This document shows positions 6,264 through 62,821 of a stretch of DNA of 64,000 nt, one piece after another. Every line of letters begins with the position of its first letter. The first letter of the stretch is position 1. The position numbers were made by a program, and so were the translations under genes. Under the pieces are notes generated by a model that was not told the DNA's origin, made no database searches, and was given only the letters and a program-made list of their open reading frames with translations. This DNA comes from Chloroflexota bacterium (GTDB lineage Bacteria; Chloroflexota; Anaerolineae; Promineifilales; Promineifilaceae). The stretch lies in contig JAJRYT010000151.1 in the NCBI GenBank assembly GCA_024275635.1, forward strand, positions 62,001-126,000, written 5' to 3'.

Positions 6264-8024
6264 TCATCGACGGCCGTTTCTAACCACCCAGCCCGCTAAT
6301 CCCAACGCCAACAGCGCCCCGGCCCCGATGAACCAGTAGGAAAGGGCGTTGGGGATTGGGGATTGGGGATTAGAGAGCGATGATTGGGAATTGATGATTG
6401 GGGATTGGGGATCGGTTGTGGGGGTGGGCACGGCCGTTTGTGTCATCGTTGGGGCGGGTGTGCCGGAGGGTGCGGTTGTGGGAACGGCCGTGTTTGTCGC
6501 CGTCGTCGTTTGCGTGGCCGTCGCCGTGGGCGTTGCCGCCGGGGTGGACATGTCGGCCAGCCCAATGTTGAGCGCCGCCAGCCGGGTCGGGTTGAGCGTG
6601 GCGATTGGACTAGACGGAGTCGGGTCGGCGGAAACGGCCGTATCGCCCCCCGCAGGCGGCAGAACGGGCGGCGCGGGCGGCACGCCCCCGCCATCCAGCG
6701 TCTGCACCAGGTAGTATGTCTGGCCGCCGATCATGCAGTAATCGCCGGCCGACTGGCTGCACAACGCGCCGGGCAGATGAACGGGAAAAACGCCGTTAAC
6801 GGCCGTTACCCCCCGGCGTCCCCCCCACATGTCTACCAAGACGGCCGTGTTGGCTGTGGCCGTCACCTGCGCCGTCTGCGGCGCGGGCAGACGGGAGAAC
6901 AAGACCGTCGTCGTCTGCCCCCCCTGCTCCAGCCGAATCTGGCCCACACTGTCCCACCGTTCGCGGGAAACGGCCGTCATCCCCGCCAGGTAACGCATGG
7001 CGATTTGGTAAGTGGTAAACGCGGGGCGGCGACGGCCGTTCATGCTGATCAGGCCAAATGGCTCCGGATTGGCCGCGCGGTCAGTGGGCGTATCCTTCAG
7101 CTTAAAAACGGCGATCCGCTGCGCCCCGGCCGCCAGCGCAGAGGCCAGCGCCTGGGGCATAAACGCCGCCTGCTCGTCCAGCGTCACGGCAAACATCCCA
7201 TCCGGCACCGGCCACTCCGGGTCATCCACCGGCGGCGCATTCGTCTCCGCCAGCCAGATTGGTTTCCAAATCCCATGCCCGCCCATCGCCCCATAAAACA
7301 CTTGGATGATGTCGTAAATCATGCCCGGCTGGAAATAAAGGTGGGCCGTAGCCACGTCAAAATAATAATTGTTCTCCGCCGCCGCCGGATCGGCCATCAC
7401 CACATCCAAAAAGCGGTCGAAGTAACCAGGGTCCCAAAAATGGGTGAAGGCGGCCAGGTGAATGACGGCGTTGGGGTTGGCCTGCTTGGCAACGAGGTAG
7501 GCCGTGCGCTGTAATTGGAAAAAATCCTCGACGGAGCCGTTCCAGGTGTGGGCCACCGCCCCGGCGCTGATGTCGGGTTCGTTCCAAATCGTCCAATGGT
7601 CAATGCGCCCCTGGTAGCGGGTGACGGCGTCGCGCACAAAGACGGCCCAGGTGTTGTTGGGATCGTCGTGGGGCAGCCACAAGCCGTGTGGCAGCCCCTT
7701 CTCATCCGTCGCCCAGCCGGGTATGCCGATGAGCAGACCGGTGACGAGCCGTCCGGCGTTGATTTCGCCGTTGATTTGGGCATCGCTCACCGGCGGCAGC
7801 CATTCGCCGGAACCGTTGGGCTGGGTTTCGGCCCAGTGGAATTGGACGCGAGTCCAGGATGCGCCCAACGCGCCAGCTTCGCCGGGCGCTTCGGCGCTCT
7901 CGATGACGCCAAAGCGCCAATCTATGCCGGCCTGGGGATCGGTGGCGGACACGGCCGTTTTCGGGGCGGATATGGCTATGAATAACAAAATCACAAATAA
8001 TAAAATCAGCTTACTTCGGTTCAT
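6264..8024 (-). CDS. Membrane-anchored glycoside hydrolase-like TIM-barrel protein
   Basis: After a signal peptide (residues 1-27) comes a clan-A glycoside hydrolase-like barrel. It contains WTIWNEPD with the presumed acid/base Glu near residue 149, and IWLAETNAP with the presumed nucleophile near residue 260. This matches GH39/GH5-like proteins, and the substrate is unknown. The C-terminal 170 residues are a Pro/Thr/Ala linker, then a membrane segment and RNGRR tail. Part of the linker, rich in Ser, Asn and Pro, is encoded by a GGGGATT repeat array, so the repeat has been absorbed into the reading frame. Confidence 0.8.
   Translation of the reverse strand: MNRSKLILLFVILLFIAISAPKTAVSATDPQAGIDWRFGVIESAEAPGEAGALGASWTRVQFHWAETQPNGSGEWLPPVSDAQINGEINAGRLVTGLLIGIPGWATDEKGLPHGLWLPHDDPNNTWAVFVRDAVTRYQGRIDHWTIWNEPDISAGAVAHTWNGSVEDFFQLQRTAYLVAKQANPNAVIHLAAFTHFWDPGYFDRFLDVVMADPAAAENNYYFDVATAHLYFQPGMIYDIIQVFYGAMGGHGIWKPIWLAETNAPPVDDPEWPVPDGMFAVTLDEQAAFMPQALASALAAGAQRIAVFKLKDTPTDRAANPEPFGLISMNGRRRPAFTTYQIAMRYLAGMTAVSRERWDSVGQIRLEQGGQTTTVLFSRLPAPQTAQVTATANTAVLVDMWGGRRGVTAVNGVFPVHLPGALCSQSAGDYCMIGGQTYYLVQTLDGGGVPPAPPVLPPAGGDTAVSADPTPSSPIATLNPTRLAALNIGLADMSTPAATPTATATQTTTATNTAVPTTAPSGTPAPTMTQTAVPTPTTDPQSPIINSQSSLSNPQSPIPNALSYWFIGAGALLALGLAGWVVRNGRR
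6349..6413. repeat. GGGGATT heptamer array inside a coding region
   Basis: Seven or so copies of GGGGATT and relatives (GATGATT, GGGAATT) lie within the linker-coding end of the hydrolase gene. Three heptamers equal seven codons, so array length changes in threes would preserve the frame. Confidence 0.7.
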
Positions 8025-8046
8025 TGAGGATAAGTCTAGAATGGAA

Positions 8047-8101
8047 AACGGAACACGGATTACGAATTACGGATTACGGAACACGGATTACGGATTACGA
8101 A
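8047..8101. repeat. GGAACAC / GGATTAC heptamer array
   Basis: About eight degenerate heptamers alternate GGAACAC, GGATTAC and GAATTAC upstream of the hydrolase gene. The same units recur at 16673 and at 62740. Confidence 0.75.
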
Positions 8102-9044: not shown

Positions 9045-9046
9045 AA

Positions 9047-9097
9047 TTAATGATTGATGATTAATGATTAATGATTGATGATTGATGATTGATCAAT
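9047..9097. repeat. ATGATTG / ATGATTA heptamer array
   Basis: About seven heptamers span the gap between the Dam-type gene and the methyltransferase gene and run into the 3' end of the latter, where they encode its last residues (SSIINH). Confidence 0.75.
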
Positions 9098-14180: not shown

Positions 14181-14398
14181 AAGGGTTCGTTCAAAATTAA
14201 CTTTGCAGTTTGCTGGTAATTGGGTAATTGGGTGATTGGGTAATTGGGTAATTGAGTAATTGGGTAATTGGGTAATTGGGTAATTGGGTAATTGAGTAAT
14301 TGGGTGATTGGGTAATTGAGTAATTGGGTAATTACCAGTTACCAATTACTTGGTTCCAACTTTTCAAACGCCAAAGTTATAAACGAACGCACCCTTAG
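14181..14398. repeat. Element C, copy 1, with internal GTAATTGG array
   Basis: The ends are imperfect inverted repeats, GGGTTCGTTCAAAATTAACT and the complement of AGTTATAAACGAACGCACCC. Between them are about a dozen GTAATTGG-type octamers and a reverse-complementary stretch, so the whole can fold. It lies between convergent yhaM and the glycosyltransferase gene, and its right end supplies the TAA stop codon of the latter. Copy 2 is at 36511. Confidence 0.8.
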
Positions 14399-16581: not shown

Positions 16582-16672
16582 ATCTCCTGATCAAGTGTCT
16601 ATATTCACATCAATTATGCAATTTTTGCCCCAATTGACAATGGGTGTGCCTCATTTCGGTTGTCATAGCCAT

Positions 16673-16767
16673 GTTCCGTGTTCCGTGTTCCGTGTTCCGT
16701 GTTCCGTGTTCCGTGTTCCGTGTTCCGAATTACAAATTACGAATTACAAATTACGGATTACGGATAA
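16673..16767. repeat. GTTCCGT heptamer array followed by AATTACA/GGATTAC units
   Basis: Eight GTTCCGT units in perfect tandem are followed by about six ATTAC-ended heptamers. The units are the complement of the GGAACAC series at 8047 and 62740. Confidence 0.85.
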
Positions 16768-34957: not shown

Positions 34958-35278
34958 TTATATGTCAAAAACCTGCATGGACTTCATGACTGCGTTCAGG
35001 TCGCCTTCTACTTTTACTTTGCCGGACATGAAGGCCATCATCGGGTTTAGTTTCCCGGTGATCATGTCGTGGTAATCGCCGGCGTCCATGCGAACAGTGG
35101 CCTTGGGGCTGTCGACGGGGCCGGCAGCGATGTTACAAGCGCCATCAGCAATGGTAACGGCCCACTGCCCGCCACCATCGCCAGACAAATCAAATAGAAT
35201 CACCGCGTTCATATCGCCGGCTTTTTCGGCGTTGAATTGGCCGGACATTTTTTCAAATAATTCGGCTACAGTTGCCAT
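34958..35278 (-). CDS. SCP2 sterol/lipid-binding domain protein
   Basis: A 106-residue single-domain protein with the SCP2 pattern: MNAVILFDLSGDGGGQWAVTIADGAC, PKATVRMDAGDYHDMITGKLNPMMAFMSGKVKVEGDLNAVMKSM. It probably carries a fatty acyl or other hydrophobic ligand. AAGGAGA precedes the ATG. The upstream region has three repeats that look like an operator, so expression is probably regulated by a TetR-like or similar factor encoded elsewhere. Confidence 0.9.
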   Translation of the reverse strand: MATVAELFEKMSGQFNAEKAGDMNAVILFDLSGDGGGQWAVTIADGACNIAAGPVDSPKATVRMDAGDYHDMITGKLNPMMAFMSGKVKVEGDLNAVMKSMQVFDI

Positions 35279-35307: not shown

Positions 35308-35361
35308 GATTGTAGAAACTACAATTAGTAGAAACTACAATTAGTAGAAACTCTATTTAGA
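35308..35361 (-). promoter_or_regulatory. Three direct repeats with dyad TTGTAG-AAA-CTACAA
   Basis: The 16-bp unit TAGAAACTACAATTAG recurs with period 16 about three times (the last copy diverged). The unit itself contains a dyad, TTGTAGAAACTACAA. Position and form suit an operator for the SCP2 gene. Confidence 0.6.
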
Positions 35362-35426
35362 TGAGGGGAAGTATAGCAACGGCCGTTTCGGTGTCAAGAT
35401 TACAGAACGGCCGTTTGTCCCCTCCC

Positions 35427-35438: not shown

Positions 35439-36512
35439 ATGATGAAATATACGACCCGAAAACAGTTCATTCGGTGGGCGGGCTTGGCGCTCTTGTTGAC
35501 TCTTTCCGCTTGCATCCGCCAACAAACCACCCTCACAAATACTGCCCATGATACCGAATACGAATTGATTACCCTGCTGCCGCGCGACGCCATCCCAGCC
35601 ATAGACAACCCCCAATTCCTGACGGCCAGCGAAGCCGAAGCCTTTTATGATGCCGACGAACTTGTCCTGGGCGTCGAATTTGACGGCGACGCCCGCGCTT
35701 ACTCCGTTCCCTTCCTCAGCAACCACGAAATTGTCAACGATACTGTCGGCGGCGTCAAAATCGCCGTCACGTGGTGACCGCTTTGCTTTACGGGCATCGT
35801 GTATGCCCGCGAAATTAACGGCGAAGAATTCACCTTTGGCGTATCCGGCAAACTGATCCGCAATGTATTGGTGATGTATGACCGGCAGACAGAAAGTTAT
35901 TGGAGTCAGCTCTTGGGCGAAGCGGTCGCCGGCGAGATGGAAGGGACGAAGCTGGAATTTGTGCCTTCCTGGATGATGACGTGGGGTGAGTGGCAGGCGC
36001 AGCATCCGAACACCGTCGCTTTGGACAAAGGCGGGCGGCGTGGCGGGGGCGATTCTTATGCCAGCTATTACCAATCCGGTTCGGCCGGGGTGATTGGCGA
36101 GACGTTCCAGGATGACCGGCTGTACACGAAGGAGTTTGTGGTGGGACTGGAAGTGGATGGGGAAGCGGTGGCTTACCCGTTCAGCCGTTTGAATGATGAG
36201 CCGGTTATCAATGATACGATTGCCAATCAGCCTGTGCTGGTGGTTTTTGATCAGGAATCAGCGGCCAGCAGTGTGTTTGAGCGAGAGGTGGATGGGCAGG
36301 TGTTGACGTTTACGGCCGTTTCCTCCGCCACCTCCCTCACCCTCACCGATGCCGAAACAGGCAGCACCTGGGGGGCGTTTAGCGGCACAGCCACAGATGG
36401 CCCGCTGGCCGGTAAACAATTGACGCGCCATAAAAGTACCGTTTCCTTTTGGTTTGGTTGGAAAGATTTTTATCCTGAAACAGAAGTATATGGCCTGGCG
36501 GCAGATGACTAA
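35439..36512 (+). CDS. DUF3179 lipoprotein with in-frame TGA, candidate selenoprotein
   Basis: The reading frame from ATG 35439 to TAA 36512 is continuous except for TGA at 35775-35777 (codon 113). Both sides match DUF3179: AFYDADELVLGVEFDGDARAY before, and TGIVYAREINGEEFTFGVSG with MYDRQTESYWSQLLGEAVAG after. The family motif VTxCPLC reads VTW-stop-PLC here, so the TGA stands exactly for the first Cys of CxxC. A stem-loop suitable as bacterial SECIS follows. A lipobox (LSAC) near residue 25 makes it an exported lipoprotein. Alternatives are a TGC/TGT-to-TGA mutation or a base-call error. Confidence 0.7.
35791..35809 (+). promoter_or_regulatory. SECIS-like stem-loop after the TGA
   Basis: CGGGCAT (35791-35797) and ATGCCCG (35803-35809) form a perfect 7-bp stem with loop CGTGT. 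The loop begins 20 nt after the TGA and has G as its second base, within the published bacterial SECIS model of 16-37 nt spacing and G in the first two loop positions. Confidence 0.5.
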
Positions 36513-51088: not shown

Positions 51089-51196
51089 TAACAGTAATTG
51101 GTAATTGGTAATTGGTAATTGGTAATTGGTAATTGGTAATTGGTAATTGGTAATTGGTAATTGGTAATTGGTAATTGATCAATTACCAATTACCCT
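51089..51196. repeat. GGTAATT heptamer array with inverted end
   Basis: About eleven perfect GGTAATT units are followed by ATCAATTACCAATTACC in the opposite sense, so the end folds back. It lies between convergent ssb and the GbsR-like gene. Confidence 0.9.
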
Positions 51197-58434: not shown

Positions 58435-59774
58435 ATGAGTACGATTGAACGTCTACCTCCACACAGTATCGAAGCCGAAGAAGCGGTCCTCGGCTCATTG
58501 CTCATTGACCCGGATGCTATTTTCGAGGTCGGTAATTTTTTGCGCCCCGATGCTTTTTACCGTACTCAAAACAAGTGGATTTTTGAAGCAATTCTGGATT
58601 TGAGCGATCGTCGGGAACCGCTGGATTTGATCACGCTGACAGAAGAGCTGCGCCGTCAGGAACGGCTGGAAGAAGTCGGGGGCGAAGGCTACATCATTGG
58701 CCTCATCAACGCAGTTCCTACCTCCATTAACGCCCGTAACTACGGCAAACTGGTTGAAGCCGCCTCCCTGCGGCGCAAGATGATCTCGGCCGCGGGCACG
58801 ATTGCCAACCTGGCTTTTGACGAAGCGGAAGATGTGAACATTGTCATTGATCGGGCGGAACAAACGCTCTTTAGTATCAGCGAGGAACGCACAACCCGCG
58901 ACTTGGTCCCCATCAAACAAATTGCGCGGGAATACCTGGAACGAATTGAAGAGCTGCATGCGCGAGGCGATGATGTCATTGGCGTGCCCACCGGGTTTAC
59001 CGATCTGGATCGGCTGTTGGGCGGTTTGAATAAGTCCGATCTTATCATTGTGGCCGCACGTCCCGGTATGGGTAAAACATCCTTACAGAACGCGATGGCG
59101 TTAACGGCCGCTAACCGGTACGGCAAACGCATCGCCATGTTTAACCTGGAAATGTCCGGCGAGCAGTTAGTGCAGCGCATGATTGCCGCCGAAACGCGCA
59201 TTGATTCACAGCGGCTGCGCCGGGGCGACCTCCATGAACAAGAGTGGCCCATCTTCATGGAAGCGGTTGGCCGCCTTTCGGAAACGCGCATTTTTATTGA
59301 CGACACGCCATCCATCACGCCGATGCAGCTACGAACCAAATGCCGCCGTCTTTATGCCGAGCATGGACTGGATATGATCATGATTGATTATTTACAGTTG
59401 ATGCAAACGGAACGAGCCTCGAGTAATCGGGTGCAGGAAATCAGCGATATCTCCCGTTCGTTGAAGGGGTGGCGCGGGAATTAGACGTGCCGGTCGTGGC
59501 GGCAGCCCAGTTGAGTCGGGCCGTCGAGCAGCGTTCGGATAAACATCCCATGCTCTCCGACCTGCGTGACTCCGGCTCGATCGAGCAAGACGCCGACATC
59601 GTCATGTTTATCTACCGCGACGAATATTACAACCCCGACACCACCGAACGGCCCAACATCGCCGAACTCAACATCGCCAAACACCGCAACGGCCCCACCG
59701 GAACCGTTGACCTGTACTGGCATGGAAAACTAGCGACATTCAGGAATTTACAAAGACAAGAGATCAATCTCTAA
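58435..59774 (+). CDS. dnaB: Replicative DNA helicase DnaB, with an apparent -1 frameshift
   Basis: The N-terminal domain opens [22 protein letters not shown]. The RecA-like core has [16 protein letters not shown] (Walker A near residue 212) and [13 protein letters not shown] (Walker B). At GGGG 59466-59469 the frame ends after SLKG, and the C-terminal part continues in the -1 frame (GTG 59469) as [20 protein letters not shown] to NLQRQEINL. The two pieces together make a normal 446-residue DnaB. One missing G in a homopolymer is the simplest cause. Programmed slippage is less likely. dnaD and a dnaC-like gene follow. Confidence 0.9.
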
Positions 59775-59811
59775 TAACCAATTACCAATTATCAATTACC
59801 AATTACCAATC
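59774..59811. repeat. CAATTAC heptamers between dnaB and dnaD
   Basis: Five CAATTAC/CAATTAT units fill the whole gap and run up to the dnaD start codon, leaving no room for a ribosome binding site. Confidence 0.75.
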
Positions 59812-62739: not shown

Positions 62740-62821
62740 TACACGGAATACGGAACACGGAACACGGAACACGGAACACGGAACACGGAACACGGAACAC
62801 GGAATACGGAATACGGATAAC
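62740..62821. repeat. CGGAACA heptamer array inside the T-box leader
   Basis: About ten CGGAACA/CGGAATA units sit between the last upstream stems and the TGGAACCGCG antiterminator sequence. This is the same unit as at 8047 and (complement) 16673. Confidence 0.9.

Follow-up and report, generated by a model that had tools for sequence, protein, structure and literature searches.

A DUF3179-family gene with an in-frame UGA codon in a Chloroflexota bacterium very probably encodes a selenoprotein

One gene of the window, by which we mean the whole 64,000-nucleotide stretch of Chloroflexota DNA that was analyzed, very probably encodes a selenoprotein of the DUF3179 family, and this reading, taken whole, is the best explanation of the data presented here. 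TGA recurs at the same site of the gene across species and is equivalent there to the Cys codon of homologues, the hairpin following it is conserved and covaries, and the genome from which the window was taken holds a complete set of Sec machinery. Judged by these comparisons, the gene is almost certainly a selenoprotein gene and not a pseudogene; insertion of selenocysteine, export of the product, and a redox chemistry are what we infer for it. A standard gene caller would split this gene in two, and the evidence that it encodes a selenoprotein is comparative.

The ATG-to-TAA frame of the gene is interrupted solely by the TGA at codon 113 (Table 1). The protein obtained by reading through this codon matched PF11376 (DUF3179) with 305.4 bits, against a gathering cut-off of 27, over positions 1–292 of the 292-position profile (E 5.7e-91). 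An earlier examination of the letters alone, here called the sequence-only reading, had proposed that both halves of the gene lie in one frame and belong to DUF3179, and the coverage of the whole profile at 305 bits agrees with that proposal. The residues around codon 113 are VTW-U-PLC, with the TGA standing where VTWCPLC has its first cysteine. That the codon stands in for the first Cys of CPLC and produces a UxxC pair had likewise been put forward, and was confirmed from the sequence and from alignment to Cys homologues. The read-through protein had no match in NCBIfam, and in an Rfam scan over the whole window no family reached its gathering score.

Table 1. Positions within the window of the DUF3179 gene and of the features assigned to it
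Feature	Positions	Strand	Basis and remarks
Predicted Sec-containing DUF3179 gene	35439–36512	+	Open frame with one TGA; 357 residues, U at 113, TAA end
Putative signal sequence with lipobox-like LSAC (residues 22–25; 35502–35513)	35439–35513	+	Read from translation
Repeat 1, residues 66–205, carries UxxC, predicted Rieske-like	35634–36053	+	hhalign; AlphaFold2; VIA-align Z up to 7.2
Predicted Sec-UGA codon, residue 113	35775–35777	+	Sequence; Cys homologues have the invariant first Cys of their CPxC in this column
UPLC (UxxC) motif, residues 113–116	35775–35786	+	U/C113, P114, and C116 invariant in 97 aligned rows (U shown as C)
Predicted bacterial SECIS hairpin	Arms 35791–35797 (CGGGCAT) and 35803–35809 (ATGCCCG), loop 35798–35802 (CGTGT)	+	Sequence, fold, conserved register, covariation
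Repeat 2, residues 224–350, without UxxC, predicted Rieske-like	36108–36488	+	hhalign; VIA-align Z up to 9.0

We searched 59 genomes, the window's own and those of 58 relatives, and found a match of some kind in 26 of them. The gene itself or an orthologue 65–77% identical to it was present in nine genomes (the window's own and eight others), in each case with exactly one TGA, at codon 113. When all DUF3179 sequences from the window's genome and its relatives were aligned, the site column carried TGA in 22 genes and Cys (TGY) in 42 sequences, 39 of which are distinct. The sequence-only reading had suggested asking whether the TGA aligns with Cys in homologues, and had named a lack of homologues with TGA at this position as a refutation; the TGA does align with Cys (22 TGA genes, 42 Cys sequences), and TGA homologues are numerous, so that the proposal was not refuted on this count. 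The other DUF3179 genes of the 59-genome set comprised a second TGA-containing group reading VTW-U-P[ILV]C-YT, many Cys forms, and a group without a recognised CPxC. A second TGA-containing DUF3179 gene was found in the window's own genome (L081; G000:C96:561–1427) and belongs to this second group, as VTW-U-PICYTG. Three divergent DUF3179 genes on long branches, L084, L085, and L089, have their TGA in LAAY-U-AAC, LAAW-U-EAC, and LVTF-U-APC, respectively, and are possible further independent Sec sites. One TGA-containing gene of the second group, L054 (G001:C247), lies in two parts in different frames, through frameshift, decay, or assembly error.

Of 400 genomes drawn from the phylum, 75 gave a match with an E of no more than 1e-40. 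All six non-self matches at 49% identity or above contained TGA (one row contained two). In the four of these six whose sequences were examined, the TGA stood at the codon-113 site, within VTW-U-PLC, ATW-U-PLC, or ITW-U-PLC; an internal TGA was missing only from matches at 46% identity or below. At G346:C281:32414–33361, two TGA codons stand inside a DUF3179 match.

The wider distribution was examined with a DNA pattern for VT[WFY]-TGA-P-x-C plus three more residues, which occurs once in the window and in none of 100 shuffles. Scanned over GTDB genome contigs, it gave at least 119 loci. Among the matches listed, 118 of 119 loci (119 of 120 candidates) hold a TGA-containing DUF3179 gene that matches the window protein. 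By lineage, 87 of those listed fall in Chloroflexota, 28 in nine other phyla, and 3 are unplaced, in a collection whose taxon sampling is uneven and with a pattern that finds TGA forms only. The 28, again among the matches listed, are from Zixibacteria (9), Myxococcota (4, titled Deltaproteobacteria), Fidelibacterota (Marinimicrobia; 3), Nitrospinota (3), Methylomirabilota (3), Tectomicrobia (2), Calditrichota (2), Planctomycetota (1), and Acidobacteriota (1), names that come from record titles and lineages of bins that may be mixed. Some of the GTDB loci probably lie on contigs that also supplied loci of the relatives (for example, L161/L003 and L177/L002), and identical sequences were counted once. 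Viral contigs scanned with the same pattern gave a single match, which was not DUF3179. The family is thus found in at least ten phyla of largely uncultured bacteria, and many of their genomes probably carry its genes wrongly annotated as truncated.

Trees were then used to follow the residue at the site. The first was built from 169 rows out of 202 proteins, with short, duplicate, or X-containing sequences left out, and on it 6 changes among the three states (Sec, Cys, or neither) are required. Small Sec groups (L179; L171, L188, and L207) lie in this tree inside a supported group that is mostly Cys. In a second tree, made without the long-branch L084, L085, and L089 (all TGA) and the short L086, Sec versus Cys needs 3 changes, and a single Sec clade was rejected (p-AU 0.010, quick tree). 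In view of these changes and of the Sec groups nested within a Cys group, Sec and Cys have probably been exchanged several times, in a sample that was drawn on TGA and over-represents Sec. Repeated Cys/Sec exchange at one site would furnish natural pairs in which the benefit of Sec could be studied.

The sequence-only reading had described a 7-bp stem downstream of the TGA, with the loop CGTGT beginning 20 nt away and G as its second base, and every element of this was found. The stem is perfect, the hairpin starts 13 nt after the UGA, and the distance from TGA to loop is 20 nt. The bacterial SECIS consensus, as given in PMC13188914, has a loop of 3–9 nt, a stem of 4–16 bp, a G within the first two loop bases, and a distance of 16–37 nt from the UGA; the window hairpin lies within all of these values, with its 5-nt loop, 7-bp stem, G in second place, and 20 nt. 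Taken alone, the hairpin is mildly unusual (MFE z −1.41, with 19 of 200 shuffles folding equally well or better), and the single sequence is therefore not decisive; conservation across species and covariation are. After omission of L183, which has only 32 nt downstream, the 140 TGA sequences reduced to 134 distinct ones, and 99 of these pair at 6 or 7 of the 7 positions in the register of the window hairpin (register A). A second register (B), in which the 3' side is moved by one base, pairs at 6 of 6 positions in 30 of the 134, so that one or the other register fits 129 and neither fits 5. Among the Cys homologues, 0 of 39 distinct sequences had a hairpin in register A or B, a contrast that is partly one between subfamilies, since most of the Cys homologues compared belong to other subfamilies.

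Covariation was scored among 92 of the 134 sequences, those of the window's type. The score of 0.278 compares with 0.069 (sd 0.011) in shuffles, none of 500 being as high, and with 0.013–0.048 in controls in which the pairing partner was slid. Paired cells made up 94.8% versus 82.0% in shuffles, and cells changed on both sides of the stem numbered 49 versus 8.1. Both-side changes were seen at 4 stem pairs, a number that 44 of 500 shuffles reach and that is consequently less decisive. Counting bases after the TGA, pair 15/31 was seen as G-C, C-G, and U-A, and pair 18/28 as C-G, A-U, U-A, and G-U; pair 17/29 was seen as G-C, C-G, and G-U and was unpaired in 14 of 91 rows. In the relative L005 a G-C pair is swapped to C-G, by which Gly and Ala are exchanged at the two arms, and such a compensating swap is expected if the RNA, and not the protein alone, is under selection. 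Measured against synonymous-codon shuffles, the MFE had a mean z of −1.17 in Sec genes and −0.25 in Cys genes (Mann-Whitney p 5e-5). The share of genes beating 95% of their own synonymous shuffles was 22% for Sec and 13% for Cys, which makes single hairpins weak evidence.

The presence of selA, selB, selC, and selD in the genome had also been named as a check, and the absence of the Sec machinery as a refutation; all four were found, and the proposal was not refuted here either. The genome from which the window comes encodes a tRNA-Sec (67.5 bits; anticodon TCA) together with selB (342 bits), selA (561 bits), and selD, the last in two contig-end pieces (L092:1501–1818 and L091; G000:C10 and G000:C62). 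The first of these pieces reads ASCAGUASK with a TGA, which we take to be the Sec/Cys site of SelD, and in this genome selD itself appears to encode a selenoprotein. All 14 family-f1 genomes with a TGA-containing DUF3179 gene have SelD above the cut-off, and each has a selD piece with one TGA, whose position was examined in the window's genome only. Of these 14 genomes, tRNA-Sec, selB, and selA were all found in 9 and at least two of the three in 13; tRNA-Sec was counted from 59 bits and not from the 47-bit cut-off because weaker matches occur in every genome searched. No convincing tRNA-Sec was found in G033 (best 47.3 bits, against 59–78 in clear cases) or G034 (32.7 bits), and no selB above the cut-off in G004 or G030.

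For structure prediction, an alignment of 97 rows was obtained from 121 diverse rows chosen. The AlphaFold2 model made with these 97 rows, U being given as C, was a confident one, with a pLDDT of 91.4 and a pTM of 0.86, and residues 40–224 modelled alone had a pLDDT of 95.5. The protein is a tandem duplication, its two repeats (Table 1) aligning by hhalign with a probability of 99.9 at 28% identity, and in the window protein the UxxC of repeat 1 is matched by DQES in repeat 2. For repeat 2, VIA-align reached Z 9.0 (92 residues, 3.1 Å), with 24 chains at Z of at least 8; for repeat 1 it reached 7.2 (92 residues, 3.2 Å), with no chain at Z 8. These values are near the stated background of 7 to 8, and the comparisons are second looks at Foldseek's own matches. 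The best 50 VIA-align rows for each repeat we take, by title, to be Rieske ferredoxins or Rieske-domain enzymes (for example, 2qpz, 3c0d, and 5cxm). In Foldseek itself, the full model had its first Rieske chain at rank 10 (E 0.07, probability 0.99), below nine unrelated large chains of low probability, and repeat 1 had a Rieske-type chain at rank 1 with a weak E of 0.13. Compared by profile with 32 Rieske sequences of the relatives, the family matched weakly, at 2–7% probability. By sequence, no solved structure was found for the protein at E 1 or for the profile at E 5, and no thioredoxin-like chain stood among the fold-search matches listed. The predicted fold reads as Rieske-like, of uncertain kinship. 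Membership in the Rieske iron-sulphur proteins was considered and rejected, as the CxH..CxxH cluster ligands occur in 0 of the 97 aligned rows and the UxxC falls off the CPxH in weak alignments.

The N-terminus has a hydrophobic stretch that ends in LSAC, and signal and LSAC together suggest that the product may be exported and anchored outside the membrane. In a crude scan of the 132 TGA rows that were long enough, 34 had a lipobox-like site and 102 a hydrophobic 15-mer. Open reading frames within 3.5 kb of the 119 listed GTDB candidates were compared as neighbors. At the listed loci no conserved operon partner was found other than a further DUF3179 gene, which is present in 10 of them; 11 of 11 such open reading frames match the window protein. 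The largest neighbor group (27 loci, 28 open reading frames, minus strand) was set aside, as it nearly always overlaps the gene itself and looks like an antisense shadow, and none of the remaining groups was present in more than 7 listed loci.

Between the gene and a divergent upstream open reading frame (34958–35278), a 16-base unit, GTAGAAACTACAATTA, is repeated 2.6 times with 100% identity at 35312–35352, and near it is a promoter-like site (11/12) on the minus strand at 35397–35370. Elsewhere the window has tandem arrays with a seven-base period at 6349–6412, 8043–8099, 9046–9093, 16672–16727, 51094–51177, 59773–59810, and 62741–62817. Their units include GTAATTG ×12, TGTTCCG ×8, and ACACGGA ×11; several lie outside the 40 longest open reading frames, and that at 6349–6412 lies inside one. 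One array has an 8-base unit, GGTAATTG, ×15, at 14215–14333.

A nonsense mutation or an assembly error that truncated an ordinary Cys-type DUF3179 gene would have left a pseudogene, and the window by itself could be read in this way, with a single TGA splitting the frame and a lone hairpin that is mildly unusual. However, the same codon is TGA in eight relatives and at no fewer than 118 GTDB loci, the protein is conserved on either side of it, and the hairpin covaries, all of which makes a pseudogene highly improbable; a read error is also very unlikely, since the TGA recurs in many separate assemblies. Decoding of the TGA as an amino acid other than Sec, by a recoded or leaky system, finds its one point of support in G002, the nearest relative, which keeps TGA-containing DUF3179 genes of both groups and in which tRNA-Sec, selA, and selB were not found. 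The assembly of G002 is only 78% complete, and it has a full-length, TGA-containing selD (379 bits); for these reasons the missing genes are taken as an assembly gap, and they are the least comfortable fact we have. Homologues have Cys at the site, a conserved SECIS follows it, and the full Sec set is present in the window's genome. In addition, the 40 longest non-overlapping table-11 open reading frames of the window end in TAA (17), TGA (15), and TAG (8), and, with the caveat that such frames are stop-ended by construction, TGA-ended frames are common enough that there is no hint of a genome-wide recoding of TGA. We therefore give non-Sec decoding very little credence.

On the preferred reading, that of a selenoprotein, UGA codon 113 would be decoded as Sec by SelB and Sec-tRNA(UCA), recruited by the downstream hairpin, and the Sec-protein would be exported and anchored outside the membrane via its lipobox-like LSAC. 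The Sec and Cys of U-P-L-C would most likely form a redox pair (a selenenylsulfide when oxidised), carried on a body rich in beta structure that consists of two Rieske-like repeats in tandem and lacks iron-sulphur ligands, and the likeliest function would be that of an exported thiol/selenol redox enzyme acting through U113 and C116. The main alternative function is a metal site with H96 and E97; the protein would still be a selenoprotein, with the UxxC binding a metal or cofactor, perhaps together with His96 and Glu97, and not serving as a redox pair. The likeness of the predicted fold to Rieske metalloproteins speaks for such a site, as do residues E97, P114, D148, W155, and G165, which are invariant to the same degree as U/C113 and C116, and position 96, which is His in 81 of 97 rows. 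Against it, in the 97 rows the only Cys columns conserved in at least 60% are 113 and 116, the only His column is 96, and CxH..CxxH is lacking throughout, while UxxC is a frequent motif in the accessible part of the published selenoprotein table (PMC9312934). A metal or cofactor site is accordingly considered rather unlikely. In the papers found that name DUF3179, no function is given for it.

DUF3179 has been listed before. PMC9312934 (2022) includes "DUF3179 domain-containing protein, pfam11376, UxxC/T" among predicted prokaryotic selenoproteins, and PMC13188914 (2026) repeats the entry with PF11376; both cite Zhang and Gladyshev 2007, on the Olavius algarvensis symbiont, for DUF3179. The domain also appears in a table of an Idiomarina study. 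The family is thus already known as one of predicted selenoproteins, and the window gene is a well-supported further member of it. The sequence-only reading had called the gene a candidate new selenoprotein; "selenoprotein" stands, with TGA orthologues, a covarying hairpin, and Sec machinery behind it, and "new" has to be dropped, DUF3179 with UxxC/T being present in two reviews. Chloroflexi and Anaerolineae are mentioned in neither PMC9312934 nor PMC13188914, the accessible parts of the two give no SECIS, phylogeny, or structure for DUF3179, and no literature was found that treats DUF3179 and Rieske together. What is added here is the breadth of the family, two SECIS registers, repeated Sec/Cys exchange, and a predicted double Rieske-like fold without ligands. 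More tentatively, and with somewhat less than even confidence, we propose that DUF3179 proteins are widespread, mostly overlooked exported selenoenzymes on a double, cluster-less Rieske-like fold, in which metal ligands were lost, a UxxC pair was gained elsewhere, and Sec and Cys were exchanged repeatedly, and that their genes are probably annotated as two broken fragments in many uncultured Chloroflexota and other phyla.

Compared with the predicted DUF3179 selenoprotein listed in PMC9312934 and PMC13188914, the window protein has the same Pfam domain and a UxxC, a likeness of domain and motif as listed. Cys-form DUF3179 proteins are homologous to it over nearly the full length, with about 34–46% identity in the relatives and mostly VT[WFY]CPLC; they differ in having TGY where the window gene has TGA and in having the hairpin in neither register (0 of 39 distinct sequences, most from other subfamilies). 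Rieske [2Fe-2S] domains resemble each DUF3179 repeat in predicted fold, whereas CxH..CxxH is theirs and is absent from DUF3179, and the UxxC of DUF3179 does not fall on the Rieske CPxH in weak alignments. Selenoproteins of the thioredoxin fold have UxxC in common with DUF3179. In the thioredoxin fold, which is alpha/beta, the active-site CxxC or UxxC is at the start of a helix, whereas the DUF3179 model is nearly all beta and places Sec at the end of strand 106–113 and ahead of strand 118–123, with no helix between the two strands. If the predicted fold is right, DUF3179 would carry its UxxC on a Rieske-like body and not on a thioredoxin fold, which would be the first structural handle on this domain of unknown function.
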